Under the pieces are notes generated by a model. That model was not told the origin of the DNA and searched no databases. It worked only from the letters and a program-made list of their open reading frames with translations. A stretch of 64,000 nucleotides of DNA from Allacma fusca (lineage: Eukaryota > Arthropoda > Collembola > Symphypleona > Sminthuridae): positions 74,015,067 to 74,079,066 of the forward strand of contig OX359245.1 in the NCBI GenBank assembly GCA_947179485.1, in the 5' to 3' direction. Made by a program: the position numbers and the translations under genes. Position 1 is the stretch's first letter. Each line of letters opens with the position of its first letter. Shown piece after piece: positions 28,619 through 57,452 of this stretch.

Positions 28619-29187
28619 TGTTACGGATATATTATAAATAGAGTAGAATAAGCATAATCTAAGTCAGCAAATAGTTTGGAAGGTCGTAAGCAGAGGCTAC
28701 GTGATGCCAAACGCTGACATAACATAATTATAAGGAAATGATTTAGATTATTTAATAAACAATAAACTAAGAATAGGATAAGATTAGATTTAGATTAAGA
28801 CACGTAGACTAGGTACAAGTTCTAATCTCGACTTCAAGCAAGCAACATCAGAGGAGCCGCACCTAGAGTCCATTCCCTCCGGGATGGATCTCAACAGGTA
28901 GCAAGCGGGGTGACATGAAATCGGAGATTTCATGAAGAAGAGATTCAGACTTCAAATTCTATTTGTGTTAAATGTTAATTGTTCAGTGTAAATTGTATCA
29001 GTTTAGGAACAATAAATCGGATCAATAAATTATAAAAACGAACTACACACAGAATTCATTAGTTCCATTTATTCATGCGTTTCCAACAACATCGGATTCC
29101 AGGAATTCAGGGGATGGAACACCCGAACCTAGGCTACATTATTATTACCCACACACCATCAATACCCGGGTAATACCATACATAACA
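28619..29187 (+). repeat. 5' LTR of the giant element
   Basis: 569 bp, TGTTACGG...ATACATAACA. A TATAAATA box sits at 28633-28640, only 14 bases in, with a TCAGCA initiator-like site about 33 bases downstream (A at 28666). AATAAA signals lie at 29011-29016 and 29024-29029. If these are used, U3 is only about 47 bp and R is about 370-380 nt, an unusual division. Confidence 0.95.
28633..28666 (+). promoter_or_regulatory. LTR core promoter: TATA and initiator
   Basis: TATAAATA at 28633 and TCAGCA around 28664-28669 have canonical spacing for a TATA/Inr RNA polymerase II promoter. The same TATA octamer and spacing recur before ORF5 at 53291. Confidence 0.45.
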
Positions 29188-29197
29188 TGATGTTTCT

Positions 29198-29258
29198 GCC
29201 AGGCCTTCGGGTTTTTTGGTAAGGACCCGGAGGATCCGTAGGTCGGGGACCTGCGGAT
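29198..29258 (+). other. Two leader hairpins just after the LTR
   Basis: The first hairpin is CCAGGCC-TTCG-GGTTT (about 29198-29216), with a UUCG tetraloop. The second is ATCCGTAGGTC-GGG-GACCTGCGGAT (29234-29258), an 11-bp stem with one G-U pair. Position suggests dimerisation, packaging or primer placement; this is inference. Confidence 0.6.
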
Positions 29259-29866
29259 GACCCTGTGACAAAAGACCGAACTTTGTAGCAAGTAAGGTCG
29301 TTAGTCAAACAAAATTCATGAGATGGAAGTATGGGGTCCGAAACGGAGGTGATGTTTCATTTCTCTCCAGGGCCACCCGAAACTTCTCGTGAAAGGCAGT
29401 CATAACATGCAACAATGTTACCTCAAGAAAGAAAATTTGGCCATTATCATCACGCGCGGATTCAAATAACAGTTCAGAAGTCCTAGTGCGGCACTAGAAG
29501 AAGAACTATTTTGTGGCCAGAAATATTATTTTAAGTGACCAGTGAAATTGGGACTCTTTCCATCCGGAAAATTAGGGGAAGAGGACGTCCAATAAGGTAA
29601 TACAATTTTTCTTTAAGGTTCATGAATTTCATGTTTAGGAGCATATTAATTTTGTCATGTAGTTACGACGCGTAGCTAATATTCAGGAGTAATTAACCAG
29701 AGTTTAGATACAAATCATATGTGTAAATTAGAAAAATTGCGCATATATGTATATGTATTTTGTGGTTTTCAGAGTACATAGTAGGTGTATGTGCATTAAA
29801 AATTTTTTCACCAAAATTAGCTTCTTCCAGTAAAATAAGTCTTCTTCTATCTTTTTAGACGCCTTA

Positions 29867-31610
29867 AGTGCCGTTGTGAGCGGAGGCATAAACAGTGTTC
29901 GTATTGTAAAGGGAACTATTCCGGCTGAAGGGCCGTTTCTGTGCGCAGTATAATAGTAATCTTTCTCTTCGTAAGTTTTAAGTTCTTAATTTCAAAAAGG
30001 CCGTTTTGAGCGTTGAAATTCTTTTAACTCTTCAAATTACTTTCCAAAGTTTTGGGAAACCCCAGGCTAGGGGATAGGAACCCAAAACACAATTAAAAGC
30101 TTTCAATTAATTAGGACATTTTTTTATTAATACCAGACTCTCAAAATTAACTTTCCAAGCTAAGTTTAAAGCAAAATACGATCTATCTTTTCAGTAAATA
30201 ACTCAAAAATAATCTTTCACTCTCTTCTTTTTCTACATCTTTCTCCTTCTAGTATAAGTACATTTGAAGGGCCGTTACTGAGCGCAAATGCCTTTAAAGT
30301 CTTTATCTCCAAATTACGTAATTAAGAGCCCCATGGCAAGGTGGCAAAACCCAATTAAAACCCTTTCGCTGAAAATTACTTTCTTTACCTGATGTGTAGG
30401 TTTACACGGGTAACAATAGGACCTATCATAAACTTTTCACAAACTTCTTTTCTTCTTCCATCTTTCCATTTCTACCAGAAATGCCGTTTTGTGCGCTGGG
30501 TAATTAGGACATAATTCGTCATGGTTTTGGCAAATATTAGGATTTCAAAATCAATCCGGAAGGCCGAATGTGAGCACGGAGCATATCAGATTTCAGTTAG
30601 TCATTTTTGCAAATCAAAACCTATATAGCTCAGTTAGAGAGCATAGGTAGATCAGACCATCTAAAGACTATAGTATGTAAGGTGAGCAAAATTACTCGGG
30701 ACGGCCGAATATGAGCACCGAGGCGATTAGGACAGTTTAATTAAGGTTTGAACAAAATTTAGTCCAAAGGGCCGAGGTACATTGAGCGTGGACACATTGG
30801 CATAGTATATAAGCATACATATAAGAAAATTCTCATCTACGTAGTTTTAGGGATTCAAGGGCCGAAATGTGAGCGGAATCATTGTTGTGTATAAGTTTTA
30901 GTATACGTAGAATCCGAGAGGCTAGGAAGATTATGAGGGACCTTATGGTTCAGTAGGGTTCGAGTCATTCCAAGCACGGAGGTGATCGGATGGAGTGCCG
31001 ACAAAAGTACCGATAAGCCTGTGACCTACTAGAGGTAATCGGAGAGGCTATGATTGACGCACCGATATAGGTATATGTTTGTAATGTGCCCGAGCTAGCG
31101 GATAGGTAACAGCAATGACTATTACTAGTAAGGAGGTCCATGGTTTAGTGGATAGGATAACAGGGGACATTCCAAAGCACGGATGTTCACTTTAAAATCT
31201 ATGTATGCGGTTTCCAGCTATGGCCATACATAGGGACTTTCATATTTATTACTTCTTCCATAGATGACTCATGGTTTTGAGTGCATCATAAGTTTAGCCA
31301 TTCTCGAAGGATTTTGCTAGAGTAGAGAGAATTGGCATAAGAAACCACAGGCTCATGGTTTTTGAGAGTTGGTTATAGGGATAGGAATTCAGTAAATTCT
31401 GGTGCTTTCAGTTTTTGCTGTCTACGTCAGATACAAGCCTTGCTGATGGTAGGATCGGTTCAAGGAAGTTCTTAGGTACGAATTAGGACGCGAAACATAT
31501 CCTTTGGGGCAGAAGGGTAATTAGTAGCGAGGAATACAGTCCTTATTAATTCTGGGAATCATTACAGGAGTATTTAGGGAATTTAGGCAACACCGGCCCG
31601 AATGTGAGGA
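29867..31610 (+). repeat. Dispersed leader motif array GGCCG...TGAGCG
   Basis: About ten degenerate copies, at about 29867, 29928, 29997, 30266, 30479, 30559, 30698, 30766, 30857 and 31593. Early copies read GCCGTT(N)TGAGCG and later ones GGCCGAATGTGAGC. All have the same orientation, spaced about 50-730 bp apart. The core is conserved while the sequence between is not, as expected of a bound DNA or RNA motif. Confidence 0.65.
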
Positions 31611-31689
31611 GTGTTGATTGACAAAGACTGATAATTTAAGGAGTTAGACGCAACTAGCCATTGCAAATAAGTTATTGTAAAACGGTTAA

Positions 31690-31920
31690 GCTTTAAGGTG
31701 AGTAAGTTAAAGAGCGCTAAGTTTTAAGGAGGATAGGATTAAGGAGACTAAGTTTAGGGAAGTTTAAGTTTTAAAGGACACTAAGTTTTAAGGGGAATAG
31801 GTCTTAAGGAGTTTAAGTCTAAAGAAAGTAAGTTTACGACAGTCTAGGTTTAAAAGGATTAAGTTTTAAAGGAAATTAGGATTAGAAAAGTTTAGGTTTT
31901 AAGGAAATTCAGGTGGTAAC
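31690..31920 (+). repeat. TTAAGTTTTAAGG-type quasi-tandem repeat
   Basis: Ten or more variants of (T)TAAGTTTTAAGGA follow each other at roughly 15-30 base intervals. This makes a purine-rich low-complexity stretch before the poly-A run. Confidence 0.6.
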
Positions 31921-32308
31921 ACCAGGAGGTACTTATTGGAAACGTTAGGATTACAGAGATTAAGTTTTAAGACGATTCACAGCTAAGGTTAGGGACGTTC
32001 AGGGATTGAACATTTAGATTATAAGCACAGAAAATTCCTTTTCCAGGTTATCATCACCTATTGGCACAATTAAGTTTAACAACTAGAGTTATATAAGCAT
32101 AGGCATACAAGGCAAAAAAAAAAAAAAAAAAAAAAAATTTTTAGGAAACGGTTTAAGTTGAAATTTGGCATAAGTTTTAAGAAGGTTTTCAGGATTGGAA
32201 TTGACAAACGAACTCTCACAACCGTCAAAACAAATTCATAAAACCAAACTCTACGAAACGCCTTAGCATTTTTCAGCCCATCAAGAAAAAGTTAGGACGT
32301 TTACAGGT

Positions 32309-35300
32309 ATGGAACCCGAAAAGAACCAACATCCATCAAGAAGGGAACCACCACCTGCACCTTCAATACCATCTCGAAGGACTACGCGATCGGCAGGCCC
32401 AGTGCCACAGAACGAAACAGGCTTGGAGGAAATCCTCGCCCGCAGGAAAGAAGAGAGAAAAGCAGCAAAAGCCAAAGCTAATACAGCAACGGCAGGTGTA
32501 GACCTCTCTTCAACATCGTCAGCTTCGACATCTACAGTCATGGAAGAATCCGGCAGTACAACCCTGGCATTATCTGCACAAAGTCCATCGGGCTCGCAGG
32601 CCATGGGGCACGGAGATAATCCTGACAATAATGATGAAAGCATGGACGTGTTCTTGGACACGGTGTCAACACCTGCAACAGGTACGGCAACCAGTCCTAG
32701 ACGAACACCAACAGTATCGACAGCACAAACACCAAAGTTTTCAAAAACAAAGGTGGTGCAAGGACAAAATCTCCATAGACTAGCTATGCAACGAGAGTTA
32801 CGCGACCTCGAGGTAACCAACCTGGAGGGCCAACAGGTCCAACGAGACCAGGAGGTTGAGGCCACAGGCGAATTCATGCTAAATGCTAGAGGAGACATGG
32901 TTTTTGTCAGTCACGACGCTGACCCCACGATCAAGGAAATCCTGTCGCAGTTCAATCAACCTGAGGAAAGACCAACTAGTAGCGCTGCCACGTCATCATT
33001 TGAAATCATCACGGATCCTGGAAGCAATCATACAAGCGTAGAGGAGGGCGAGCAAGGATTCGCAACTCCAGAAAGTGAGATGGAAGACCTGACCAATGAA
33101 TCAGCCAACAATGTGGTTGTCAGCAACCTGACAAACCCAGTTGGCAACGGAGACATTCCTCAAGACACGAGCATACAATCCCAACAGGATGTACAAAGTC
33201 AAGGAATGTGCAGCAAAGCTACTGGACAAACAGAACAACAGGTTAATCAGCAAAGCTCAACGGAATTGGATGATGTGGAGGATTCCAATAGACCAATTGC
33301 TATAGCAACAAGTACACCAGAGATTATCCAGCAAGGGAATCTCAGTACACACTCATCATTTAGGGACAATTTAGCAATAACTCAATCGGACGAGTCAACC
33401 GAACAGAGCGAACAAGGTGACTCACCAACAGGAGTGCCACGTACTAATAACAGTATAGGGAGTGATCGTGACCAGGTCACTACTCAATTAAATCAGCAGT
33501 TATCAAACTTAAGCATCAGTGACCACCGTAAGGCTTCACAGTCAAATACTACAGTTTCCCAACAACCAGACATACAACAACTTGTACGAGACAGGTTTCT
33601 ATCAAGACCATCTCCAGGATTTTCCAATAGAGGAGACGTAGGCTTTCAAAGGACACTCAGCCGGGTGTCTGAGTCTACAGAACAGGAAGGCCCGGTCGAG
33701 GATCAGTTACCACCGATCAGAGAAGGGCAAGATAACATCCAAAGAGTAGAAGAAAATTTCGTACAATTAGTGACAGGGACAGGTGTGATAGTACCAGCAG
33801 GTTCGTTTCAACAATTAGTGACCACCGCAGGCTTCCAACGGAACTCAGTGGAAAATTTTCTGGTAGTTCGAGGATTGGAAGGACAACTGATAGAGGTGTA
33901 TCACAGGTTAGCTCAAAATCTTTATACAGGTACAGTCCAGTGGACACATTTTTTCCTTAGTTTAGCTGAAGTCACCCACAGACGGGACAATAACAGAGAT
34001 CCGAATAGGGAAGAAAGGGAAGTGTTACGTACACGTGCCTTCGAGTACGGTCGGAACGTCAGGGACAACATTTTCATCCCCACAGACGTCATCCGAAACC
34101 TTTTAGAGCACCGGGTATTGTCGTTGAGAAGTCACCAGGCACACCAGGATAGCCAGATTTTCTTCAACGATACACCTAGGTACACAACCGTGATACAATC
34201 CGGACGACTTAGCGAAAATCTAGAATTTGGTCAACCACGACAAGAAAGACGAGTCAGCGACGAGAGTAGGCCAGGCCCAGAACAAGATTCAAATAACAAC
34301 GGGACCACCCAACAAAGTGTAATCGACTCCAGTGCTGACGACACCATTAGCAGGTACCTTAGGTACGACCAAAGAAACCCACCAGTAACACGGAATCCGG
34401 TTACGGGTTTATTAGAACCAGCATCTAGATCTACGCTAAGGACCATCTCGGGTGAACCTACAGTACAACCCGTTACGTCACGAAGGATTTCACCGGAAAG
34501 CTTGAATACCAGCTCAAGCTCGATCAACAAGGCTATAGCCCAGGCAATAGCCTCAGCGACACTTCAAGCAGGATTAACAACCCCTCGAAATCGGAAGTTG
34601 AGTAACTCCGATCGTGACCATCTCAGACCCAGTAACCAGGTGACGGACAGTAACCAGGTAGATTACTCATCACCTAGGTCACAACTTTTCCAGAAATCGG
34701 TGAAAAGACACTACAGGGTAAATAGTGCTGAGGAAAACAGCAACTTAAATCCCAGAACCAGTCCGCAAGGGATTACGACACGTGAGAGACCAAGCAACAG
34801 CCGTCGCGAGACAGCCATTCAGAAGGGTAGCCCAAAAGCACCCACTACATCACCTACAGTCCAGACAGGTAATCAAACACCAGCAGGGAGCTCTACGGCA
34901 CAACCGAGAGTGACCCCGAGGTCCAGTAATTCCTGTCGCTCAGCACCTACAACAGGTGACAGAGGGCAGTCAAGCCGACACAGCAACTCTCACGAGATAA
35001 CACAGCAAATCAACCCAGTACACATCTCACCTACTAGTCAAAATAGACAGGTTTCAACGGAAAATACGCCGAGGAACCGACCAACTCAACCTAACCTGCA
35101 ATTCAGACCACAACCCACCCAAAACGATTTGGAGACACCAACCGAGGAGGTCGAGACCACCCAAATTGGTAGTACATCACAGGCTAACGTTAAGAAGGAT
35201 TTAACAACAACAAAGTTGTACGTCAACACAGATTCCACCCAGGCCAACACTAACGAGCAACTGGTACACCGAGTTTACCAGTCACCGGGAGGTCGAATCT

Positions 35301-38300
35301 ACGTACATCCACCCGTGCATGCGTTACGAGCACCGCCACTTGACGTTAGTGAGACAGCTTTAAGAACATTGGTGCAAGTAGGGAGACAACTAAGAGAACA
35401 GAATCCGTCATTAACTATCGCAAATACAATCAGAAATTCTGACACAGGTACTTACTATCAGGCATTTAGACCCCAGGACAGATTTACCGTCTATCAATCA
35501 CCGAGAGGCTCGTTATATAACAGCCTACCGATAGGACGCACAGGTATACACCGCCACAGTTTACGAGGTCGAGACATCCTGCAGCGAGCAACCAACAACG
35601 ACAGGACCATCATAGAAGGTGGAGAGCTTGTAACAGCACCCCAACCACCACCTTCGGAACAGACATCTAGAAGCAACGAGTCTTACGTCCAAGGTGACAC
35701 CCTAAGGTCACGGACGGCAACACCTGCATCAACTACACGTGCAGCAACGACTTTTGCAGTACCAGCTAGACCAACCGGAAGGTTCATAACCAGGTCAGCA
35801 AACCGACCAACGACACCGACAGCTCCAGCTGTCCCCGTCAGACCAAATTCAGCAGTAGCAGGACCATCTCGAGTAACAACAACGCCAACCACAAGTCAAG
35901 GTACAGTCAATTGGCTTGACGACTTACGATACGGAGTTGACATTTGGACAGGACCCAGTGGCAGAGTATACACCAGTGAGAACGAAGCTACCGAAGACGA
36001 GTTAGTACCAAGCAGAGTAACAACGAGACAATACTCTAAGATCGCGAGACAACAAGACAGATTCAGAAACCAGGGGGTAGAGAACGAAGCAACTTGGACA
36101 GGTCAAGTGAGACGCCTGATCTACTATAACAGAAGGGACGGAATCATACAACGAAGGTTTAGACCAGCTAGAGATTCAAATTTTGAAGCATTTGCAGCCA
36201 CAAGAGCTGAACACGAAGAAATTGTTCTGAGTGAACACCCGATATTTACCTTCTGGAATATAATTACCCGAAGATCTTTAGACCCAGGACAGATCTCCAG
36301 CTACATCGCACCTAATTTCAGACTTTACCATCGACACATCAGTTTACCAAACGGCGTTCGCAGACAAAGGGTACCACCAGGCTTCTTGGAAGAAATTGAG
36401 AACGAACACGACCACCAAGAGGCATTGAATAGATTAATTCACGACCCTAACGTAGAAATCTTGAGTGACACGTCCAGCGAGGAAGAAGAAGAGCAGGTAG
36501 TACAGAGAGACACTCCAAGACGTGAGAGTGGTCAGCATAACAGTACACAGTCTAGTGAAGAGACAGACCACATTTTTATTGGAGTTGACGAAGAGGACTT
36601 CATTATTCCAGAAGTACCAGGTCAATTTACCATAAGAATCTCTATAGACGACGCCTACGACGCAGCGTTCAGAGCAATTGAAAGAGACGAAGAGATACAA
36701 GAGGAAGTCCGATTTGTGGATAATACCGGAGAAACCCACTTCTTCCCAAGAATCCGACTCCGAGACCTTAGTCCGGAAACTCAAGTTGTACTCACTCAAG
36801 TCAGAAAGAGACGTAAACCCTTACGAGCACGCCGTCAAATTGGAAATAACCAACCCAGACCACCAGGCCCAGGACCAAGTGGATCAGGGAGAGGAAACCA
36901 GCCGAGAGGGGCTAATAACAACAATTCCCACAACCAGCGACCATCTCAATCAAGGTCAAACCCAGGTCGAAGAGGCTCAAGAGGAGGTAGACACATCGGA
37001 GGCAGACGGAGAGCAAGGAGCGACCCCGGAAGTTCCGGAGGAAGTAGCTCATCATCCAGCTCCAGTAGTAGCAACTCAAGTAACCCTCACGACTTTGAGG
37101 CCTTCGACAACTGGAGGAATAGACAGATTGTGAACAGAAATAATTTCTTTAACCAGGTCAACGTTAACATCATCAACCCATACGTACCACTCAATCGCAA
37201 TCAGGGAATACGTATTGAGGAAGTTGCAGACCAAGAACAAGTACGAATAATTCCAAGGAGACATCTGGACGACGACATGACCGCCCTCATGTTTCCCAAA
37301 GTAGAATTCAAACCGGGTGTAGATGACCCAGAGACAGCTTTCGCAACAGCCGAACTCCAAACCAACAGGTTCGGAGGAGATACCATCATAACTAGGATGC
37401 AATACGTACAGATCATCTTTGACCCACCCGTCAGGGATTGGATCAGAAATTGGATTGCCGAACGAAGATTACATGAGGAACTACCCTACGACACCATTAA
37501 CTGGGACGAATTCAGGGAGGAATTTCTAATAAGGTACAGTATCACCGACCAAATGATACGTACACTAATGGAAAAGCGAAAGATGAATACGGATGAAGAT
37601 CCATGTGCATACATAGATGCGAAATTAGCACTAATCAATAGAGTCGACAGATTTATGCCCGAACTGGAGAAAATCAGACTCTTACGCGCAGGTTTAACAT
37701 CCGAATACATAGTTTTCTGCCGAGGATGGACAGCAGGGACTGTAGCAGATTTCATAGAGGGAATCAAGCAGTATGATGAAGACCGAAAGACGGACGGCGC
37801 AGAATCCATTGAGACAAGATTTGCCAAAGTCCAAGAAATGTTGGAGAAATTGACCTCCGGAATGAAACCAGTTCCAGCAGAAACAACTGTAGTGAAAATA
37901 GCTGCAGTGAGAGAACAACAGGATTATCGGAGACCCGAAAATAGACCCAATGACCAACGAGGACGAAGTCCAGGTCAGGGAAACTTCAATAACTCACGAA
38001 ATTCCAGCCCAGGTTACGGTAACAATAACAACTACCCGGACAGGGGACGTAACAACCAAGGGTATGAGGACCGAAGAAATTATGGGAACCGAGGTAGATC
38101 TCCAACACCTGAGAGATTCTACAATAATCAAGACAGGAGTAGGCCTCAGTACAGAAATGATGGCAACAGCTCCAACAACCAAGGTTACCCGCAGCGGAAC
38201 CAAAATTTCGGACCCAGACAAAGTCCGAACCGACAATACTACAACAACAACCCTAACAATCAGGGAAATCGTCAGTGGAATGACCAACAGATGAACCAAG

Positions 38301-38875
38301 GATACAATCAATCCTACAACGGCTATAACAGCCAAGGATTTAATCAAACTCAAGGCTTTATGCCACCCCAAGGATTTAATCCGAATCAAGGATACCCACC
38401 ACAACAAGGTTATGCACCATTTCAAGGTTATGCACCTACCCAAGGGTATGGACCATCTCAAGGATACGTACCTCAACAAGGATACGGTCAAGGGCAAAAT
38501 GCAGGGTACGCCAACCCTGGCATGCAACAAATTCAGGCCAACCCACAAGGTTACCAGAACCAGGGTTACCAGCCAAACAATAACCAAGGAGGTCAGCGAC
38601 CCCAACAGTACAATAACAATAACAACAGGAGTAGAACTAACTCCAGGGACCGGAACAGCCAAAGCAATGACAGAAACAACTCTTGGAGAAATCAACCAGA
38701 CCGCCAGGAGCAGTCACAACCAATACCGGGACAATTGGCGCTAGAATCCACTCAAACCGACCTAAAGTGTTTCGGATGTGGAGAGATGGGCCACCTGAGG
38801 AGAAATTGCCCACACAAAAGACAATCTAGCCCATATCCGTCGGGAAACTCACAGAGGGGGACGCACCCCCAGTAA
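32309..38875 (+). CDS. gag: Gag polyprotein, 2188 aa
   Basis: ATG at 32309. Residues 1 to about 1600 are a very long disordered extension rich in S, T, N, Q, R and E, with no known domain. A motif of the form YQSPGGRIY recurs near residues 990 and 1060, with a looser version (WTGPSGRVY) near 1210. A basic RG/serine tract lies at about 1530-1590. Residues about 1660-1850 form a capsid-like domain of the retrotransposon Gag type (FGGDTIITRMQYVQII, WDEFREEFLIRYS, ACILTHR-free). An N/Q/G/Y-rich segment follows (about 1865-2150) with QGYxP repeats. A CCHC zinc knuckle ends the chain, CFGCGEMGHLRRNC at 2154-2167, which in this family binds genomic RNA. Usual Ty3/gypsy Gags are 300-600 residues. The frame ends nine codons after the frameshift site. 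Intact. Confidence 0.93.
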   Translation: MEPEKNQHPSRREPPPAPSIPSRRTTRSAGPVPQNETGLEEILARRKEERKAAKAKANTATAGVDLSSTSSASTSTVMEESGSTTLALSAQSPSGSQAMGHGDNPDNNDESMDVFLDTVSTPATGTATSPRRTPTVSTAQTPKFSKTKVVQGQNLHRLAMQRELRDLEVTNLEGQQVQRDQEVEATGEFMLNARGDMVFVSHDADPTIKEILSQFNQPEERPTSSAATSSFEIITDPGSNHTSVEEGEQGFATPESEMEDLTNESANNVVVSNLTNPVGNGDIPQDTSIQSQQDVQSQGMCSKATGQTEQQVNQQSSTELDDVEDSNRPIAIATSTPEIIQQGNLSTHSSFRDNLAITQSDESTEQSEQGDSPTGVPRTNNSIGSDRDQVTTQLNQQLSNLSISDHRKASQSNTTVSQQPDIQQLVRDRFLSRPSPGFSNRGDVGFQRTLSRVSESTEQEGPVEDQLPPIREGQDNIQRVEENFVQLVTGTGVIVPAGSFQQLVTTAGFQRNSVENFLVVRGLEGQLIEVYHRLAQNLYTGTVQWTHFFLSLAEVTHRRDNNRDPNREEREVLRTRAFEYGRNVRDNIFIPTDVIRNLLEHRVLSLRSHQAHQDSQIFFNDTPRYTTVIQSGRLSENLEFGQPRQERRVSDESRPGPEQDSNNNGTTQQSVIDSSADDTISRYLRYDQRNPPVTRNPVTGLLEPASRSTLRTISGEPTVQPVTSRRISPESLNTSSSSINKAIAQAIASATLQAGLTTPRNRKLSNSDRDHLRPSNQVTDSNQVDYSSPRSQLFQKSVKRHYRVNSAEENSNLNPRTSPQGITTRERPSNSRRETAIQKGSPKAPTTSPTVQTGNQTPAGSSTAQPRVTPRSSNSCRSAPTTGDRGQSSRHSNSHEITQQINPVHISPTSQNRQVSTENTPRNRPTQPNLQFRPQPTQNDLETPTEEVETTQIGSTSQANVKKDLTTTKLYVNTDSTQANTNEQLVHRVYQSPGGRIYVHPPVHALRAPPLDVSETALRTLVQVGRQLREQNPSLTIANTIRNSDTGTYYQAFRPQDRFTVYQSPRGSLYNSLPIGRTGIHRHSLRGRDILQRATNNDRTIIEGGELVTAPQPPPSEQTSRSNESYVQGDTLRSRTATPASTTRAATTFAVPARPTGRFITRSANRPTTPTAPAVPVRPNSAVAGPSRVTTTPTTSQGTVNWLDDLRYGVDIWTGPSGRVYTSENEATEDELVPSRVTTRQYSKIARQQDRFRNQGVENEATWTGQVRRLIYYNRRDGIIQRRFRPARDSNFEAFAATRAEHEEIVLSEHPIFTFWNIITRRSLDPGQISSYIAPNFRLYHRHISLPNGVRRQRVPPGFLEEIENEHDHQEALNRLIHDPNVEILSDTSSEEEEEQVVQRDTPRRESGQHNSTQSSEETDHIFIGVDEEDFIIPEVPGQFTIRISIDDAYDAAFRAIERDEEIQEEVRFVDNTGETHFFPRIRLRDLSPETQVVLTQVRKRRKPLRARRQIGNNQPRPPGPGPSGSGRGNQPRGANNNNSHNQRPSQSRSNPGRRGSRGGRHIGGRRRARSDPGSSGGSSSSSSSSSSNSSNPHDFEAFDNWRNRQIVNRNNFFNQVNVNIINPYVPLNRNQGIRIEEVADQEQVRIIPRRHLDDDMTALMFPKVEFKPGVDDPETAFATAELQTNRFGGDTIITRMQYVQIIFDPPVRDWIRNWIAERRLHEELPYDTINWDEFREEFLIRYSITDQMIRTLMEKRKMNTDEDPCAYIDAKLALINRVDRFMPELEKIRLLRAGLTSEYIVFCRGWTAGTVADFIEGIKQYDEDRKTDGAESIETRFAKVQEMLEKLTSGMKPVPAETTVVKIAAVREQQDYRRPENRPNDQRGRSPGQGNFNNSRNSSPGYGNNNNYPDRGRNNQGYEDRRNYGNRGRSPTPERFYNNQDRSRPQYRNDGNSSNNQGYPQRNQNFGPRQSPNRQYYNNNPNNQGNRQWNDQQMNQGYNQSYNGYNSQGFNQTQGFMPPQGFNPNQGYPPQQGYAPFQGYAPTQGYGPSQGYVPQQGYGQGQNAGYANPGMQQIQANPQGYQNQGYQPNNNQGGQRPQQYNNNNNRSRTNSRDRNSQSNDRNNSWRNQPDRQEQSQPIPGQLALESTQTDLKCFGCGEMGHLRRNCPHKRQSSPYPSGNSQRGTHPQ
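38842..38870 (+). promoter_or_regulatory. Gag-Pol -1 ribosomal frameshift signal
   Basis: The heptamer G GGA AAC (38842-38848) is in the gag frame. It is followed by a 7-nt spacer and a GGGGG-ACGCA-CCCCC hairpin (38856-38870). The pol frame is the -1 frame and is open from 38830, upstream of the site. GGGAAAC is a known slippery sequence in retroviruses and plant viruses, and spacer and stem fit the usual rule. Confidence 0.85.
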
Positions 38876-38895
38876 CTGAAGATATCCAAGAAAGA

Positions 38896-41800
38896 ATGAA
38901 TGCAATTATAGCAACTAGAGTAGAAAGTCAGTCAAAAGACGACGAAGAATTAGAAATTATTGATCTCAACCCATGTCGTTTATCAAACGGCAACAAGTCC
39001 ACTTTACAAGTACAAATATGCAGTATGATGATACCAGCCTTACTAGATTCAGGAGCAACAAGATCCTGTATCCAAAGAAACTTAGTACCCAGATGTGCGG
39101 AAATAAAAGAAGTTCCAAGCGCGCTGCGAGTAGCAGTAGCAAACGCGGAATTGGTAAAACCAATTTGTCTCACCAAATTTACAATGATGATCGAAGGTGA
39201 AAAACTTTTATTCAAAGGTCTAGTGATGGAAACACTAGAACCACGAATGATTATAGGTGAAGATCGTCTATCACGCTACGGAATAACGTTGGATTACAAG
39301 AATAATGAAATACGGAGTGATCGATTTCAAACTGTTCCAATGACTAGAGATACTCATCTCTATGTCGGGGAGAAAAAGGCCGACATAGAATTTGTCAGGT
39401 CAATATTTTCATTTCATGAAGTCAAAGGACCGAAGAACATGATGTGCAGAACTCGAAAAGCAGTCACAATACCAGCTTATGGACACATGAAAGTGCCCAT
39501 ACAAATTCCAAAACGTATCAAAAAGGATTTTTATTTACAACCATCAGAAAAACTTTATACCAGTAAGCGACTTTTAATAGCCGCAGGTGTAGTACCGAAT
39601 GAAGAACCTTTCGCATATGTATTTAATCCAGCTCCATGCCCACAGACGATGTATGGACGTACAGCTATAGGTCATGCTGAGGAAAATTTTGATCTCATCA
39701 AAATCAAGCGCAATCAATTACGTGATGCTCATAAAAGGCTTACACAAGAACAGCTCGATTGTTTCGACGTCAATGAAGAGCTCGATGAAGAAGGAAGAGC
39801 TAAGTACCGAGCATTGTTGACAAGATATCCAGAATGTTTCGCATTTAACAAGGGAGATTTGAAAGAACCAGCGTGGATTGACCCCATTCGGATCCATACG
39901 GGAAATAATCCACCCGTTCAGGCAAAACCTTTCCCTTGCTCACCTATGGAGCGACAAAAAGTACGTGAGGAAGTACAAAAGATGTTAGATGCGGACATAA
40001 TAAAGGAAGTAAACGGACCTTACAGCAGTCCACTATTTCTCATCAAAAAGAAAGACGGAACATTTAGATCAGTTGTGGATTATCGAGCGTTAAATAAAAC
40101 CATCACAGACCAAGTTTACCCTTTAGCAAGAATAGATGACATACTTATGCAATTTGGAAAATCTGCAATGTTCGACACTCTTGACATGGAATCAGGCTTC
40201 TTTCAACTATTAATACACGAGGATGATCAAATTATAACCTCTTTCATTACACAGGACGGATTATATGCATTCAAACGACTACCTATGGGAGTCAAGATTG
40301 CACCGTCAGCTTTTCAGCGAGCAGCAGATCAAATGCTGGGCTCACTCAAATTTAGGGGAGCCATGGTATATTTAGATGATGTAATCTCTTATGGAATTCA
40401 TCTTTTGGACAAATTAGCATCACTCGAAGAATTGATGTTAAGAGCCAGCAACAAGAACTTCAAGTTCAAGCCAAAGAAATGCAAATTCGGATATTTTGAA
40501 GTAATTGTTTTAGGATTCAAAGTATCTAGGGAAGGCACCAGTCCAGATCCTGCAAAGGTGGACGCTATTAGACATGTGCCAATACCAAAATCTGAAACAG
40601 AAGCAAGAAGATTCTTCGGAATATGCAGTTTCTATAGAAAATACATCAAGGACTTCGCAAAAATAGCTAGTCCCATCTCACAATCATGGATTGGCAGTAA
40701 AGGAAAATCTGAAGGTCAAAAACGCATAAGATGCTTCCAATGGAGTGCAGATGCAACAATTGCCTTCAACATTCTCAAAACCAAATTAGTGACACAGCCA
40801 GTCCTAGCTCATTTCAACCCAGAGTTGGATTGCATACTACATACAGATGCATCAATTTCAGGACTAGGATGCTGTATACTTCAAGATGATGGAGGAGAAC
40901 ATCCAATAGCTTATGCTTCAAGGACACTAATTCAGTCAGAAAAGAATTACTCAGTCACAGAATTAGAACTAGCAGCAGTTGTATATGCAGTTCGCAAATT
41001 CAGACAATATCTTTATTTGAGAAAATTTTTAATCAGATCAGATCATTTAGCATTATGCTACCTACGATTACAAAAAGATCCAAACCATCGAATAAGTAAG
41101 TTTGTAAATAAACTACAGGAATTTGACTTCCAAGTTACATACAAGAAAGGAGCATTACACTTGGATGCAGACTTTCTATCAAGAGCTCCATTACCCTATA
41201 CAAAGGAAGATTTGGAGGATACAGAGGACCGAGTGATCGAATTTGAACCAGATCCGGTCAAGGAACACAAAATTGCTTTGGAAGAGCGAAAACAAATCCC
41301 TCACGGAAATACAATAATGCCACCACCAGCGTGTGCAGCCAGCCTTACGACCAGGGAAAGCTATAAGGGAAAATATTGGACGGATGACGAAAGTCAATCC
41401 TCAGACGAAGAGGAAGCCATAATCCCACAGCGACAAAATCCATGGTCAGGAAGATTGAAAGGTCAACCCAGGCGTAAAGTCAAATCACAAGTGGAAATTT
41501 TAGCACCTCAACCGAATTTGGAGGAAACGGATTGGGAAAACCATACAATGAGCGTAAAGAGCCGTGTTAATGAAGTTACACACAGCTACTCAGCGCTCAA
41601 AGAATGGAAATTATCCGTAGATGACATCATTACAATACACAAATTTCGGGAGGATGATCCACAAGAGGATGAAAATACCTGGAAATATACCAATGAGTAT
41701 ATCTACGAGAAGAATCTCAAACTAATACAGGAAATAGAGCTTCACAATGCCACAATAAATGAACTAGACATGAAGGAATTTTTATCACCAGATAAAGTTC

Positions 41801-44800
41801 AAAATGAGAATGAAGATTTTGACAGAAATACTATCATTGACATTGGAATGGGGACGGATTGGTCTCCTACCCCAAAGTCAACGGCAGCAACAACGTCACA
41901 AAGTCCAGCCAACGGGAAGGTTGACATTGATTCACCAAAATCCCAAGGGCAGATGACACGAAGTACAATGGAATTCACAACAATGGATGGGGCAGGTGAG
42001 GCTGAAACTAAAGCTGTACATCTACCACCAGCCATAATTGTAGACTCCGATATGGAAGTCCATGATCAAACATTGAAGAATCAGGAGACAGCGGATCTGG
42101 TGAGCCAGGCAGCTGAGACTACACAAAAGAAGTCCTCAACTAACCCGCCCACCCATCCCGCCAGTCCTACAGAGGCCAAGAAATTGGTACTCACGGATGA
42201 AGATAGGAACGTCCAAAAGGAATGCGACCGACCGACACTGAGACAGGAAAAGTTCAGTGTGGAAAATCACATTCCATCCGGACACGATCCCACAGATGAA
42301 GAGAAATGGTTTGCATTTGAAGAAATTTGGAGGAATCCAACGCCAGCAAAAGGTGATGAATGGAAGCTCAAACAGGAAGTTATTTCGCAATTGAAGACAT
42401 ACACTGCACAATCTGCCAGGAAGATTGATCAAGTTCCTGATGCAGAAAGTCCAGGATATGCTAACAATCCGGATCTTGATACCCCACAGCGGATCAAGGC
42501 GATGAAGATTTCCAAAGATGTGGATGAATGGATGAGAAATATCCAACGAAGATCTGCAGCATGCGAGTCGGAGGAAAACAAAAACCCTCCGCCGTCGCAT
42601 ACGTACATATCCACAGAGAATCCAGATAATGAAGATAATTTCTCTCTACTGGCGACCACAGTAGAAGAGCTGAGGAAAAATATCCGGGAAGGTGAAATCA
42701 AATTCACCGATGGAAGATCATGGAAGATTCAACCTCTGAAAGGGCAGGGTGTTGTGACAAGTAAAAAGACGTCACATCCACTATGTCTTTCACAGGATGA
42801 AGACCCAAGGAATAAAGACGCTCAGGAAACTGAGGACATGTCATTAAATAGAGCAATAAAATTTGTTCCAGGAGCTCACGCACTACAGGGGTGCGAAGGG
42901 AGCAAAGATACTTTTTCCACACACAAGCCTGTGTGTAGGATACTTGAAGATGAAGAGCAAGTTACTATGTTAGAGGAACATAACATGCAGGAGATGCAAA
43001 GGGACGATCCAGACTGTTTATTCATCATGGACAAAATAAAGATGCGGCATACGTTAAATTGGAAGGACAAAGAAAAGTATAGCCGATATGACATTGATGA
43101 AGAAGGGATTCTTACTATAGTACATAAAGATGGACGTAAGCTATACGTACCCCGAGTACTTAGAAATTTCCTACTATCAAAAGCCCATGATGGGATTCTA
43201 TGCGGAGGACATTTAGGATTCCAGAAAACTCTTCATAGACTCAACAAAAATTATTTTTGGAGAAAAATGAACGTCTCAGTAGCAAAATATGTCATGTCAT
43301 GTGAAAGTTGCCAAGCAGCCAAATCCATGAGAATGAAGCCAGCAGGACTACTTCATCCAATCAGGATAGAAAATGTAGGAGATGCATTATGTATTGATCT
43401 CATTGGACCCATGCAAATTAGCATAAAAGGGAATAAGTACATTATAATCGCACAGGATTATGTTTCAAAGTTTGTGATCGCAGAAGCAATTCCAGATAAA
43501 ACTGCTGACAGGATAGCAGAATTTTTGCTTCACAAAGTAGTTTTAAAATACGGACTGTTCAAAAACTTGCTGAGTGACGGAGGATCCGAATTCAGAGCGG
43601 AAATCACTCAAGCATTACTTCGTAGATTAGGCATGAACCATTCTACATCTACAGCACTAAGACATAATAGTGTTGGACAAATAGAAAGAATGGTCCAGAC
43701 TATAAGCACTATGCTGAGTCATTATACTCAAAAAGAGCAGGCATTATGGTGCAGTTGTTTACCGTTTCTAATAAATGCTTACAATTGCAGTCACCATGAC
43801 GTGACCAAAGAAACTCCTTATTTTATGATGTTTAGGCGACAACCTATATATGATTTTAACTTACAACTGTGTTTAAGCAGCGTCGACACTAATTTTATGA
43901 GTGCTGAGGAAGCCACTACTAGAATAGAAAAGGCTATTGCTAAGATAAGGGAACGTCAGGACTACAGTAAGGATTGGTATGATAGGAAAAGAAGGTTCGT
44001 TAAATTCAACATCGGAGACACAGTGCGAGTATTTACACCGACCAGGATAGTTGGAAAGAGCGAACGCTTTCTTCATCCTTACAAAGGACCCTTTGTAGTC
44101 ATAGAAGTTTTAGCCAAAGACAATTATATCATTCAAGACCTTAGGAATTCTAAAAAGAGACAGAAAGTCCATGTGGAGAGGCTTAAGAAGTGCCTACAGC
44201 GAGAACACATTGAGGACGAGTATAGTTACGATTTAGATTCCGATATAGTGGAATTGGTGACAAAACGAAACTGGAACAGGTGTGAAAAAGTTATAGTGAG
44301 TCAGCCACGGTCAATTCTTAAGAGTTCGACCACTTCAGATAACAGTTCAACTACGAGCAAGAAGGTGACTTTTAAAGTTCAACCTGCTCAAACCGAAGAA
44401 ATAACTAGAGAATTTTCATCCGAAAATTACTCAGACAGTTCAAGTGAACAAACCCAGCCAGTACAACAGAGAGGAGAATTTTGTGACAAAAATTACTCAC
44501 ACTTTCAAATTACCCCAAGTGAAGGAGGGAGATCAAACCAGGGACCACGTCAACACAAAGAGAACACTCAAGGAGGAAAACGTACTACTAAGCAGTCAAG
44601 TACACAAGTAAGAGAATTTTCGTCAGAAAATTATTCAGATAATCGGGAATTTTTAGATAAAAATTACCCATATTTCACTCGCTCGAAAGTAAATGAACAC
44701 CCTAGAAGAAATCAGGGACGAGATAAGGGGATTGAAACAACAGAGGAATTTAGTCCAAATAAAAATCTGGAAGTACGCAGCTCAGGAAGAGTACATCAAA

Positions 44801-48346: not shown

Positions 48347-48585
48347 CCGAACAACACAACGAACAGAGCAGTAGTTCAGAGGATTTTGAGGTGATCAGAT
48401 CGAAGAGAAGACCCAAAGTTCGAGAATCATCAATAACGTCAGATACAACGGAGATTGTTAATCACCACCAGCTTTCATTGGCTGATTTTGCCAATTCACC
48501 CCAGGACGGAACCGTCATACTCAGTGACGACGAGGAACCAAGACAGTCAACCTCATCAATTCAAACGCCACCTCACACGCCGGAG

Positions 48586-52842: not shown

Positions 52843-53290
52843 GACGTCACAGAGGATAATAACCTGACCATCCCATCCAGGTCATGGCATAATAAGAAGG
52901 AGAACTAGCGGGGAAAAGCAGAAGCCAAATTACCTGATGACGGAAGAAATTCCCGAAGGGAATGTAAAGTGTGGATTATTTCGCAAGAGATGATCTACGA
53001 TAAAACATTTTTAAGATCTTATGTAGCATCAACCATTGGGATTACGGCGGATGTTACATAATGATCACCATAACAGAATAGTCAGAAAAGAAAAACAAAT
53101 AAAAATAAAATACAAAATAGAAAACAAAACAAAAATATTTCACTTACTAACACATTTCATAGAGTTCATAGGATAAAAATACTAACAAAAGATTATGTCA
53201 CCGGAAGTGGGACATACGGATTACAACATTGGAATTAGGAAAAGAATTCTCTTTCGCAATCGGAAGATGAAAACATAAACAATATACTGA
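52843..53290 (+). other. Spacer between ORF4 and ORF5
   Basis: No reading frame. It is A-rich, with AATAAA-like signals around 53097-53110 that could end an upstream transcript. Confidence 0.5.
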
Positions 53291-53326
53291 TATAAATAAG
53301 AGACTCTTAAACCAGAGTACTCATTA
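53291..53326 (+). promoter_or_regulatory. Candidate internal promoter for ORF5
   Basis: TATAAATA at 53291-53298 and an initiator-like TCATTA with its A at 53323 have 32-base spacing, as in the LTR. The predicted start is 86 bases before the ORF5 ATG at 53409, with no intervening ATG seen. This would give ORF5 its own mRNA, unusual for a retroelement. Confidence 0.4.
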
Positions 53327-53408
53327 TAATCTCAACACCCACAGAGAGCTCAAATACTTGAGGTTACCCAGAAATACGGAACCAAAAATAGATACAAATT
53401 TTCCAAGG

Positions 53409-54155
53409 ATGGAATACAAGTGGTATATTCTTTTGAGCCTTACAATAATTCTAATTGCAATGGACGTTTCCGAAACCAGGCCGATAGCACAACCAAGTCC
53501 AGAACCATGGCAAGGACCACTGATGGCAGCCCTAGGAACTCAAGTCGGAAAATGGTTCGCAAATTACATGGTACCAGCCATAACCGTCGGAAGCGGAGCT
53601 ATCACAGCATCAGTGTTATCACAAAAGGACCCAATAGTACACATACTACACCACAAAGATGACGGGAAACTAGCCGTAGTGCAGTATGACCCGAACGACC
53701 CAAACGTAGAAGCCCAGAGAATCATGGAGAGGAATCAACAAATGGCTCTACTACAACCCCAACAACAACTTATACAACCCCAATTCATACAAAACCAACA
53801 GCCCACGATGCTGAAGGATAGCAGACCACCATGGATGGAGCAATTCAACGAAATTGATTGGAAATCCAATGAGGTTCCAACATCAGACACGGATTATACC
53901 GTAGTCATTATTAGTTCATTCGGTTGTATTACCACAGTAGTGATATTTATATTCACAGTAATACTGTACCGAATTCGAATGAAGAAAAGAAAAACAGATC
54001 AACAAAAACCGAATGAGAGAGAATTAGACAATGTTGCAGACACGCAGGCATTAGTCCAAAATTCTATAGAGCAGCTAGTCGGATGCAGAATTGTGAGGCC
54101 CAATACACAACAACAAGCCAGCCGACACACAACCAGAGCAACCGTACAACTATAA
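53409..54155 (+). CDS. ORF5: single-pass membrane protein, 248 aa
   Basis: The ATG at 53409 is chosen because an N-terminal hydrophobic signal follows at once (WYILLSLTIILIAM, cleavage near residue 22). The open frame extends 51 bases upstream from a TTG. The mature part has a glycine/alanine-rich amphipathic stretch (about 38-70: LMAALGTQVGKWFANYMV, then ITVGSGAITASVL), reminiscent of a membrane-active peptide. A glutamine-rich linker follows (105-135). The transmembrane helix is at about 164-187, followed by RIRMKKRK and a 55-residue cytoplasmic tail. There are no N-glycosylation sequons and few cysteines. It could act with ORF4 at the envelope, or be a viroporin- or fusion-associated protein. 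No family is recognised. Confidence 0.7.
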   Translation: MEYKWYILLSLTIILIAMDVSETRPIAQPSPEPWQGPLMAALGTQVGKWFANYMVPAITVGSGAITASVLSQKDPIVHILHHKDDGKLAVVQYDPNDPNVEAQRIMERNQQMALLQPQQQLIQPQFIQNQQPTMLKDSRPPWMEQFNEIDWKSNEVPTSDTDYTVVIISSFGCITTVVIFIFTVILYRIRMKKRKTDQQKPNERELDNVADTQALVQNSIEQLVGCRIVRPNTQQQASRHTTRATVQL

Positions 54156-55339
54156 CACCGACCCAACCGGGAAGGATCAACGCAAGAAAGAAAACAACGA
54201 AGAAAAATATACACAAAACCATAAAATTGTATGGAAAAATATTTAAAAACATTTAATAGTTATAAGATAGTATTAGCAAAATAATAGGATAAGTAGTTAT
54301 AAGTAGAATAAGGTTAGGAAGAGAAAACACAGAAAATCAAGTTCATATACAACAAAAATATAAAAATGAAATGAAAATAATCAAAGTTCAAATAACGAAC
54401 GAAAAGTTCCATTTAGTTAAAGAGACAGATCCCCAATAGGAGTAAAAGGAAGAAAAGTCTAAAGATTGTGATTCAAATCAATATATCTTTCGTGTCTCGA
54501 TGGATTCATTATCCATTTTCTTTCCAATTTCCTTTTCACCCCATTGATTCCAGTGATTAGGTTTTTATTAGATATCAACACTATCAAGTCAGGCTGTGTT
54601 TTCAAAACAAACACTGATTTGTTAACGAGACGAAATTGTTTCAAGATAAGGTTCAGTTCTAACAAAAATTTTAGGCAATATCATAATTCCTTGAGGCTTG
54701 TTCACTCAACAGCCAATGAGTGATGATTGTAATGCCTTGTGACTTATTAGGTCATTCGACTCCATATGAGAAGAATAAAAATTAAATTTCCAACCTACTC
54801 ATCGTTTGGGATGAGCGGGATACCAAATTTCCAGCAAAAATCAGAACCCCTGTATAAGCAAGTTCTCTACGATCAGGATCAGTTTACCTTTTAGCTTCAG
54901 TTTAACCAAATCTATTTAGCTAGATGTGCTAATATTTTAGGTACCTAGAAAGACAGATTAAGTAAAACAAAAGTCCAAAGGATAGATTCTTCCAAAAGAA
55001 TTTCTGTGTGTAATTCTTTTTATTTACTTGCAAATTGTATCGCATTTCAAATGATAGTTAGAAATAAATTTTGTCAAAATTATTGACATGAATGTACCCA
55101 GATCAGAAGGATCCTAATGTCGTTTGAGAGCAAGGACCTTCACCTATTCCAAGGGCCTACATAAATGATCTAGGGACTAGAAGAATAAACAAAAATATAC
55201 CACGAATAGGTAGGAGGAACTTTAAATAATAAAAATATAAAAAGTAAGAAAATTACAGTAATGGAGACATTATATGACATGATTAATATGTCATCGACGT
55301 ATGCGAGTGCTGTTTCGTATTCTAAATCGCAAAGTTTAA
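54156..55339 (+). other. Element 3' region without genes
   Basis: AT-balanced sequence, unlike the A-rich coding part. A run of stop codons in all frames and no structure that I can name. Confidence 0.5.
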
Positions 55340-56080
55340 AGGCAACTAAGATCTACATTGCAAACAGTGTTGACATCTTTTTACAATCTTGAGTACATAC
55401 ATTTGACATTCACTCATGACAAATACTTTATACACGACAAAATCAAAGTTTACGGAATCGTTAAATTCACTTCGTTTATCCAGTACAAAGGATCAGTTTT
55501 AAATCTTAAAAGATCAAACGTCTTATTTTGCTTGTTACATTCCATAGTTTCCCAAGATAAATTGTGTTTTCTTAATATAATTTGTCCAACAATTCAGAAA
55601 GGAATTTTAAACAGAAAATTTAACTTACAAATTCGACACATTTCATCAAATAGGATTTTTTTTACAGATCAAGGTATATATATATATATTTATGATTATC
55701 GCCAAAATACATTCCTATCTCAGTTGAGGAAATAGCTCACGGTACAATATGATTTTATGTCTTATGGAGTAGTAAGAACCGCTTACAGAACTTCATGGAG
55801 CACGATGTTTTCACATTTGGTGAAATTGCCAACAGTTGTGCATGAGAAGGACATAATTCCTAATTTAGCCACCGAAAAACAACTCAAATATTTCACAGGC
55901 AAAAATAAAAAGATTCTTCAAACTTTCTGTAGAGACCTCAGGAGGTTTCAGCGTTGTTTTTTTTCAAATAATTGTGTTCAAGAGCGACACTACTGCGCTC
56001 AAGACAGTCACTTCAAACCGTTGATAGTGATATTGGATAATCACACATTTCCCCACAACGATTTGTCTGTGACACGTTAA
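55340..56080 (+). pseudogene. Open frame of about 247 codons with one TAG
   Basis: One frame is open from 55340 to the stop at 56078-56080 except for a single TAG at 55733-55735. The second half has an ATG at 55757 (107 codons) and is basic and cysteine-containing (RDLRRFQRCFFSNNC). The first half has no ATG. It may be a decayed or readthrough accessory gene, a spliced exon, or chance. No family is recognised. Confidence 0.25.
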
Positions 56081-56873
56081 ATTGTTTCACAAGGAAACTC
56101 ACGGGATTTTACAAGCTATAAATTAAAGATACCTTTAAAAATACATTAGGCCACTACCCTAGAAATAGCAATAACTGACAGTAATCACAAATTGTTGCAA
56201 CAACTAGAATTGAGTATCAGATAATTAGAAAGCAAATGAGAATAGAAACAAGAGTCAATAGTTTCATATCTGCCTTCAAGTAATCTTTGCTGATCTTTCC
56301 TAATATGTTTGGAGAGCAGTCAAGACAGTTTTACAAACAAATTCTTTTCAAAACATGTGTACAAAATTTTCAATTCTGCTACGATGTTTCTAATCTTAGA
56401 TATGATAAATAACATTAGAAATCAAGTTAAATCATGATGTCAATATGATGTATTCCATGTAAATATTGTGTATGCAAATTGTAAAGGTACAAGGATTGTA
56501 TGATTTATATACAACCTCGTTCATCAAAAGTTATGTGTTTTACTTGTTCCATGTATTTGTTGTACTCTAATACCCATAGTCTGTAATTCTTGTATCATTT
56601 ATAACAAGTATACAAACAGTAACACCATCAAATATTGTACAGCGTTACAAAAGTATACACACATATGATGATGAACATGTATGATAAATTGTATGAAATG
56701 CTTTAACAATATAATATGCTCATGATCATAACATGCGAGGGGTTTGATAGAAGCAAACTATACGACCATGCTACGACCAGACTAGCTACAAAGTACGGTA
56801 ACAAAAATATAACTAGAATAATTATATGATCTTGAACTTCGACAGATGACATTGTCGAGGACGACAATTACCC
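56081..56873 (+). other. 3' untranslated region of the giant element
   Basis: AT-rich, rich in GTATAAT/ATGATGT-type short words, with no reading frame. Leads into the polypurine tract. Confidence 0.5.
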
Positions 56874-56883
56874 AGAAGAGGAA
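56874..56883 (+). promoter_or_regulatory. Polypurine tract
   Basis: AGAAGAGGAA lies immediately before the TGTTACGG start of the 3' LTR, the position required for plus-strand priming in LTR elements. The same ten bases also occur at 47692 and 50271 inside ORF3 and ORF4. Confidence 0.85.
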
Positions 56884-57452
56884 TGTTACGGATATATTAT
56901 AAATAGAGTAGAATAAGCATAATCTAAGTCAGCAAATAGTTTGGAAGGTCGTAAGCAGAGGCTACGTGATGCCAAACGCTGACATAACATAATTATAAGG
57001 AAATGATTTAGATTATTTAATAAACAATAAACTAAGAATAGGATAAGATTAGATTTAGATTAAGACACGTAGACTAGGTACAAGTTCTAATCTCGACTTC
57101 AAGCAAGCAACATCAGAGGAGCCGCACCTAGAGTCCATTCCCTCCGGGATGGATCTCAACAGGTAGCAAGCGGGGTGACATGAAATCGGAGATTTCATGA
57201 AGAAGAGATTCAGACTTCAAATTCTATTTGTGTTAAATGTTAATTGTTCAGTGTAAATTGTATCAGTTTAGGAACAATAAATCGGATCAATAAATTATAA
57301 AAACGAACTACACACAGAATTCATTAGTTCCATTTATTCATGCGTTTCCAACAACATCGGATTCCAGGAATTCAGGGGATGGAACACCCGAACCTAGGCT
57401 ACATTATTATTACCCACACACCATCAATACCCGGGTAATACCATACATAACA
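56884..57452 (+). repeat. 3' LTR of the giant element
   Basis: 569 bp, read as identical to the 5' LTR. AATAAA at 57276-57281 and 57289-57294 would end the genomic transcript. Flanked on the right by the ATAT duplication at 57453-57456. Confidence 0.95.

Follow-up and report, generated by a model that had tools for sequence, protein, structure and literature searches.

We analysed a stretch of 64,000 nucleotides from the collembolan Allacma fusca (GenBank assembly GCA_947179485.1, contig OX359245.1, positions 74,015,067 to 74,079,066 of the forward strand; the whole stretch is referred to as the window). Positions 28619-57452 of the window are occupied by a retroelement of 28,834 bp, which comprises an interior of 27.7 kb between two long terminal repeats (LTRs) and carries open reading frames (ORFs) of 2188, 2396, 686, 1483 and 265 codons. 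The element has the architecture of an LTR provirus integrated at ATAT, is present in many copies, and possesses conserved genes under purifying selection and covarying hairpins in its leader. We consider it likely that it belongs to a giant, recently mobile and probably still mobile Ty3/gypsy-type lineage, for which we propose expression by splicing, an Env-like module and packaging hairpins. The features are as follows, where family 1 is the family of the window element and family 2 a second one found in the same genome.

28615-28618 and 57453-57456, plus strand: left and right copy of the target-site duplication ATAT
28619-29187, plus strand: 5' LTR, 569 bp, with TATAAA at LTR position 15 and AATAAA at 136, 143, 393 and 406
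29188-29203, plus strand: putative primer-binding site, TGATGTTTCTGCCAGG in the window and TGGTGTTTCTGTCAGG at the same place in family 2
29188-32308, plus strand: leader, 3.1 kb, without a long plus-strand ORF; its first 2 kb share 67-75% identity with family 2
29218-29224, plus strand: splice-donor-like GGTAAGG, some 30 bases 3' of the LTR, present in both families
29857-30884, plus strand: array of nine hairpins in the leader, between the donor-like site and gag
29857-29891, 29919-29954, 29987-30021, 30258-30293 and 30470-30504, plus strand: array hairpins 1-5, by the loop-motif pattern
30550-30585, 30691-30726, 30758-30797 and 30848-30884, plus strand: array hairpins 6-9, by the same pattern
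32309-38875, plus strand: Gag, 2188 aa, with a CCHC knuckle at the C terminus and a sub-threshold Retrotrans_gag match in the capsid piece
38896-46086, plus strand: Pol, 2396 aa, with protease, reverse transcriptase (RT), RNase H, an insert of about 650 aa, integrase and a tail of about 600 aa
46286-52842, plus strand: third gene (ORF3 and ORF4 of the earlier reading), with a frame of about 2,200 codons in 28 of the 31 copies that were scored
48646-50190, plus strand: middle part of the third gene, with a signal-peptide-like and a further hydrophobic segment; its three furin-like sites are kept in family 2
52920-53070, plus strand: conserved RNA region between the third gene and ORF5, fold z -5.4; contains a 14-pair hairpin (53019-53061)
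53409-54155, plus strand: ORF5, 248 aa, with an N-terminal hydrophobic, a second hydrophobic and a C-terminal transmembrane segment; ratio of nonsynonymous to synonymous substitution rates (dN/dS) 0.20
56874-56883, plus strand: polypurine tract AGAAGAGGAA, directly abutting the 3' LTR; same sequence in the family-2 copy
56884-57452, plus strand: 3' LTR, 569 bp, same sequence as the 5' LTR

A sequence-only reading of this DNA had proposed a very young giant element of the Ty3/gypsy type with identical LTRs, TGTTA/TAACA ends, an ATAT duplication and a polypurine tract, and all of these claims held. Exact alignment of the two LTRs, which run from TGTTAC to ATAACA, revealed 0 differences over 569 bp. 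ATAT lies on both sides of the element and occurs once in a paralogous stretch at about 12482-12485, an empty site with which both element flanks can be aligned. Because both flanks together align to this paralog with its single ATAT, the alignment places the element within another copy of a 707-codon gene. The latter is probably an ionotropic-receptor-like gene of the arthropod, as suggested by a ligand-gated-channel match (Lig_chan) that remained below the Pfam cut-off and serves here only to suggest ionotropic-receptor-like neighbours. The primer-binding site, which we take to be a tRNA-Val-like candidate, starts with TGA in the window family and with TGG in the family-2 copy. Self-priming by the LTR in place of a tRNA was rejected, as the only match had 8 nt and was at about chance level.

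Further copies were searched for in the 392.7-Mb genome that contains the window, and the element proved to belong to a multi-copy family. Scoring of 40 out of 281 LTR candidates yielded 20 pairs (the window and 19 fetched pairs), 15 of which have their LTRs 28.07-28.29 kb apart, with spacings of 27.0, 25.5, 19.9, 14.4 and 3.6 kb in the other five. Partner LTRs differed by no mismatch and no gap in all 20 pairs and were 94-100% identical to the LTR of the window. Identity within pairs combined with diversity between them is what one would expect if many of the insertions had come freshly from a diverse circulating pool. ATAT flanked the pair of the window and 17 of the 19 fetched pairs on either side; in one of the remaining two the match ended 12 bases early, and the other is part of a tandem. 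The absence of changes in 22,978 LTR bases sets a 95% upper bound of 1.3e-4 per site on the product of mean age and rate, which at a fly-like rate of about 3e-9 corresponds to an LTR age under about 50,000 generations. Alternatively, gene conversion could keep the LTRs alike.

Two deviating arrangements were observed among the copies. At G000:C1:24.77-24.83 Mb, an apparent LTR-interior-LTR-interior-LTR tandem is recognizable by an internal purine tract forming the left flank of one LTR and by two occurrences of ORF5 that are 28,192 bp apart. At G000:C12:12604930-12609060, a short derivative with identical LTRs 3.6 kb apart and an ATAT duplication may have been mobilised in trans.

ORF5 matches (144 scored of 214 candidates) fell into two families that are about 52% identical, with 119 matches at 63-100% identity to the window (family 1) and 25 at 51-54% (family 2). 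The matched stretch contained no stop in 121 of the 144. The one family-2 copy that was measured is 32,264 bp long, with an interior of 30,808 bp, identical LTRs of 728 bp (728/728) and ATAT on both sides, and the pieces of this copy follow the same gene order as the window. From RNase H to integrase the two families are 57% identical (RNase H 86%, insert 45%, integrase 89%), compared to 50% in the ORF4 part of the third gene and 53% in ORF5. Two other loci (G000:C9:42983724-42992879 and C8:35497493-35499860) matched the 3' region of family 2 at 72-89% with no ORF5 match nearby, and perhaps represent a further subfamily.

Leader, Gag and Pol have the lengths given in the sequence-only reading, and the catalytic motifs to which it referred are present (DSG, YLDD, TDAS and D-D-35-E, together with one CCHC knuckle). 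The capsid piece of Gag matched Retrotrans_gag with E 0.0059, below the Pfam cut-off. The Pol frame is open from 38830 and thus overlaps the end of gag by 46 nt. Pfam matches in Pol comprise protease, RT, RNase H, an integrase zinc domain, an integrase core that narrowly missed the cut-off (E 1.4e-7) and a C-terminal domain; an insert of about 650 residues separates RNase H from integrase. Pol was open in all 20 copies scored out of 3,517 genome candidates. Its best PDB match was Ty3 (7q5b; E 1.8e-101), and the Ty3 RT scored far above retroviral and caulimovirus RTs. Two protein searches with Pol gave 297 and 461 matches, of which the best 120 each were used; among the 237 listed matches aligning over RT and RNase H, the closest was 45% identical. 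In an RT tree of 59 rows (the window and 58 matches), the window had an end branch of 1.12 and a single sister, P0126 (support 98/93), located on a 5.3-kb contig; as the tree took in matches of the window Pol alone, it bears on these and not on other RT families. A scan of IMG/VR with Pol gave 6 pattern matches and no relative. The order protease-RT-RNase H-integrase, the H2C2 and DD35E motifs, the closeness of the RT to Ty3/gypsy RTs, LTRs with TG...CA ends, a duplication within the 4-6 bp range, a polypurine tract and a Gag with CCHC are all those of Ty3/gypsy elements (Metaviridae). Hence, by sequence, Pol is of the Ty3/gypsy type.

The sequence-only reading had counted three further long ORFs, which is literally so in the window, where ORF3 and ORF4 overlap in different frames. 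Across copies this count did not stand. In 31 scored of 321 candidate copies, the ORF4 frame had 2207 codons in 27, 2206, 2105 and 1923 codons in one each, and 1549 in the window. Because the frames of 2206-2207 codons in 28 of the 31 copies suffice to span both ORFs, these data identify ORF3 and ORF4 as parts of a single gene, and copies with an open third-gene frame exist. The end of the gene had a dN/dS of 0.078 (n = 30 copies), which indicates that it is under purifying selection. Within the ORF4 part, a signal-like hydrophobic segment and a second hydrophobic segment are conserved in both families, as are three predicted furin-like sites (RVRR/RERR, RTRR/RTRR and RQRR/RKKR, paired across the families). 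ORF3, ORF4 and ORF5 matched no Pfam family above the cut-off. In PDB, neither ORF4 nor profiles of ORF4 and ORF5 found a match at E 1 or better, and a protein search with ORF4, in which 7,996 candidates were scored, found none with an E value of 0.1 or lower. The search for relatives comprised Pfam only for the ORF3 part, and Pfam, PDB and a tblastn search of phages for ORF5. DUF3905 matched a third-gene piece of family 2 below the cut-off (E 8.7e-4) and was not taken as its identity.

ORF5 is shorter than its 265-codon frame. We place its start at the ATG at 53409, since all 30 fetched copies, including the window's own, can be read through from this codon and some of them have stops just upstream. 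The dN/dS of 0.20, obtained from the best 30 copies with the window's own among them, indicates purifying selection on this gene too, and its N-terminal and transmembrane segments are conserved in both families. Alignment A5 was made from 5 of 6 sequences, with L095, whose C-terminus is frameshifted, left out. ORF5 alone matched PDB entries only at E 0.17 or worse, and the phage tblastn search found none. A relationship to the ORF4 part was rejected (hhalign probability 0.8%), and weak Pfam matches below the cut-off, ECSCR for ORF5 and OCIA in flanking ORFs, were not taken as identities.

In the RNA region upstream of ORF5, both families retain the hairpin at 53019-53061, in which 1 of 14 pairs shows double-sided change and two cells are broken (13 of 45 hairpin rows used, mostly distinct ones). 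One sequence, L093, in which LTR sequence is fused near the ORF5 leader, was part of the first alignment and was left out of the later analyses of this hairpin. Ahead of the hairpin, 52937-52963 holds a conserved stretch, ATG ACG GAA GAA ATT CCY GAR GGG AAT, that recurs in 13 of 14 other aligned copies (L093 excluded) and could represent a very short reading frame, an exon or a component of an RNA structure. Among 30 family-1 copies, the 3' noncoding part at about 55000-55650 showed a variability of 0.08-0.27 per site, compared to 0.01-0.06 in coding parts.

The hairpin array was noticed on aligning the leaders of both families. Its commonest loop is AAGGGCCG-N3..10-TGAGCG (loop motif GCCG...TGAGCG). 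The pattern GYCG-N3..13-TGWGCR occurred nine times in the window leader, compared to a mean of 0.045 and a maximum of 1 in 1000 Markov samples, and was found neither on the reverse strand of the leader, nor on the plus strand of 32309-56883, nor on either strand of 35 kb of flank. In the family-2 leader piece it occurred ten times. All 19 occurrences have a flanking stem, which comprises 3-9 pairs. When these hairpins were aligned, 93.7% of the cells in five stem pairs were paired, compared to 55.0% after shuffling and 26-45% after sliding. Double-sided cells numbered 39, compared to 11.3 in shuffled alignments (0 of 500 shuffles as high), and the number of pairs with double-sided change (5) was no better than that after shuffling (4.5). 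A covariance model of the hairpin (R1) gave 38 matches, all in leaders, in 12 sources totalling 105,865 bases; three of these sources (L001, L002 and L047) repeat window sequence. The matches comprised nine in the window, the first six of which recurred in L002, a copy of the same leader sequence, a further six in each of the family-1 copies L004 and L006 (1.5 kb of leader searched each) and eleven in family 2, one of which (L100:3313-3350) was new beyond the pattern. Rfam returned no family at the gathering threshold and two sub-threshold matches on the leader, and the entries listed by a literature search, over sources available in part, included no matching account of repeated packaging hairpins. 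As far as these searches reach, the leader hairpins appear to be new.

Taken together, these features suggest the following mode of operation. A full-length RNA transcribed from the LTR and left unspliced would serve for Gag, Pol and the genome, with Pol made by a frameshift in the 46-nt overlap with gag. The same RNA, spliced from the donor-like site at 29218, would express the third gene and ORF5. Because both carry predicted secretory or membrane signals, we interpret the two as a module with a membrane or secretory role that occupies the position of an Env and would probably act at membranes. Because the array lies between the donor at 29218 and gag, its nine hairpins would be retained in unspliced genomic RNA only, where they most likely act as repeated binding sites of Gag or its nucleocapsid that select the very long RNA for packaging. 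For a candidate packaging signal this is the simplest reading, a guess from position. That the proviruses of 28.8-32.3 kb are giant arthropod reverse-transcribing viruses, with a membrane or secretory gene pair that has no kinship to known envelope proteins and with 9-11 hairpins of one loop motif as a multivalent packaging code by which capsids pick out an exceptionally long RNA, is a bolder and rather doubtful extension.

Several observations weigh against the proposed mobile lineage with an Env-like module. The window copy is frameshifted in the third gene between about 48193 and 48346, so that the fully intact unit with giant ORFs claimed in the sequence-only reading had to be given up; a stop lies within the matched stretch in 23 of 144 ORF5 matches; the primer site of the window family does not begin with the usual TGG; and the sampling of 40 out of 281 LTR candidates favours LTRs resembling the window's. 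The two families also share just a 27-bp match in their LTRs, and the 4 kb of 3' noncoding sequence behind the family-2 ORF5 had no blastn match to the window. A recent burst since silenced, with the window copy as a defective passenger, would account for the frameshift, for the five of 20 LTR pairs that are shorter than 28 kb and for the stops in ORF5, although five of the stop-bearing matches were seen in their loci to have the stop before the true ATG. We regard such a dying family as unlikely, as LTR divergence is zero in all sampled pairs and most scored frames are open, which speaks for the recently and probably still mobile lineage. Present activity is suggested by the young age and the purifying selection. 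The unusual size could also raise the suspicion of an assembly artefact or a chimera of several elements. This is already contradicted by repeated independent copies and is hardly conceivable: 15 of 20 LTR pairs have nearly the same spacing at separate sites with their own flanks, the ATAT duplications recur, and pieces of the second family show the same gene order.

The function of the additional genes and of the hairpins is less certain. A giant, purely intracellular retrotransposon, in which the third gene and ORF5 act within the cell (at assembly membranes or against silencing) and not in entry, is quite possible, if not the reading we would choose. The ORF4 part resembles no known envelope protein in Pfam, PDB or the protein search, nor does ORF5 in Pfam and PDB or the ORF3 part in Pfam; cysteines are few in the ORF4 part (two ahead of residue 600), its signal-like segment is located inside a long frame, ORF5 has no N-glycosylation sequon, and every copy seen belongs to one genome. 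The predicted signal-like and transmembrane segments and the three furin-like sites, which are the only signs, and indirect ones, of an infectious retrovirus in the window element, are nevertheless kept in both families and favour the membrane or secretory module. As for the leader, the loop pattern was defined after viewing both leaders, which makes the comparison with Markov samples post hoc, and repeats inside one leader share descent; the array is better supported by the slid controls and by its presence in the second family. The hairpins could instead serve export, splicing control, translation or stability. We find it somewhat improbable that they are translation or splicing/export control elements and not packaging signals. 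Translation of gag must bypass the 3.1-kb leader, and a second conserved structured region precedes ORF5, but nine alike hairpins with one loop motif resemble repeated protein-binding sites, and the ORF5-leader hairpin did not match model R1.

Outside the element, the window contains a tandem duplication (3362-25086) whose copies are about 11.1 kb apart and carry the 707-codon receptor-like genes on the minus strand (11059-13182 and 22177-24300). Each unit of ~11.1 kb holds a 20-bp minisatellite (from 4371 and from 15333). A 60-nt inverted repeat, 90% complementary, is located near both window ends (879-938 and 63585-63644; 62.6 kb apart).

Among known systems, yeast Ty3 shares the order protease-RT-RNase H-integrase and, as 7q5b, is the best PDB match to the window Pol. 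Ty3 has 5.4 kb and is not known to carry extra genes or a long leader, whereas the window element is far longer and has extra genes and a 3.1-kb leader. Errantiviruses (the insect gypsy and 17.6/297 group) are likewise LTR proviruses with a 4-bp duplication, and 17.6 and 297 have an ATAT/TATA-type target preference. They are about 7 kb long and encode a baculovirus F-like Env, for which sequence methods gave no Pfam match in the third-gene parts or ORF5. Among the entries listed by the literature search, no title or beginning of an abstract announced a giant LTR element of an arthropod, with few subscription journals covered. Ogre of dicot plants is also a giant Ty3/gypsy element with extra ORFs, but in PMC6431247 its size is attributed mostly to LTRs of 1.9-6.5 kb, with an interior of 11-13 kb, in contrast to LTRs of 0.57-0.73 kb here. 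Nearest in size and class, judged from the same account, is Burro (GYPSM1) of planarians, which comprises gypsy-like elements of over 30 kb in total. Both have a Ty3/gypsy-type Pol, amount to about 30 kb in total, occur in many copies, possess additional coding capacity and may be proviral in nature (PMC6431247). The gene layout is different. Burro, compared here by its description, has a 4,873-aa ORF with MATH, BIR, ankyrin, BCL2-like, dUTPase-like and env-like parts and an interior of up to 25 kb (PMC6431247), whereas the window element has separate Gag and Pol, short LTRs and, across its two families, interiors of 27.7 and 30.8 kb; it contains no giant gag-env-pol ORF, and Pfam detected none of the Burro-type domains in its proteins. 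The novelty claimed in the sequence-only reading therefore does not extend to size, given the more than 30 kb of Burro (PMC6431247), and lies in the gene set and the leader hairpins, as far as the searches reach. If our reading is true, short-LTR retroelements reach about 32 kb, and an interior of 30.8 kb, compared to the 25 kb quoted for Burro, raises the question of how capsids and reverse transcriptase handle such RNAs. The hairpin array would be a concrete and testable candidate for the recognition of giant RNAs, and the copies are young and open enough that their continuing movement can be asked by observation alone.

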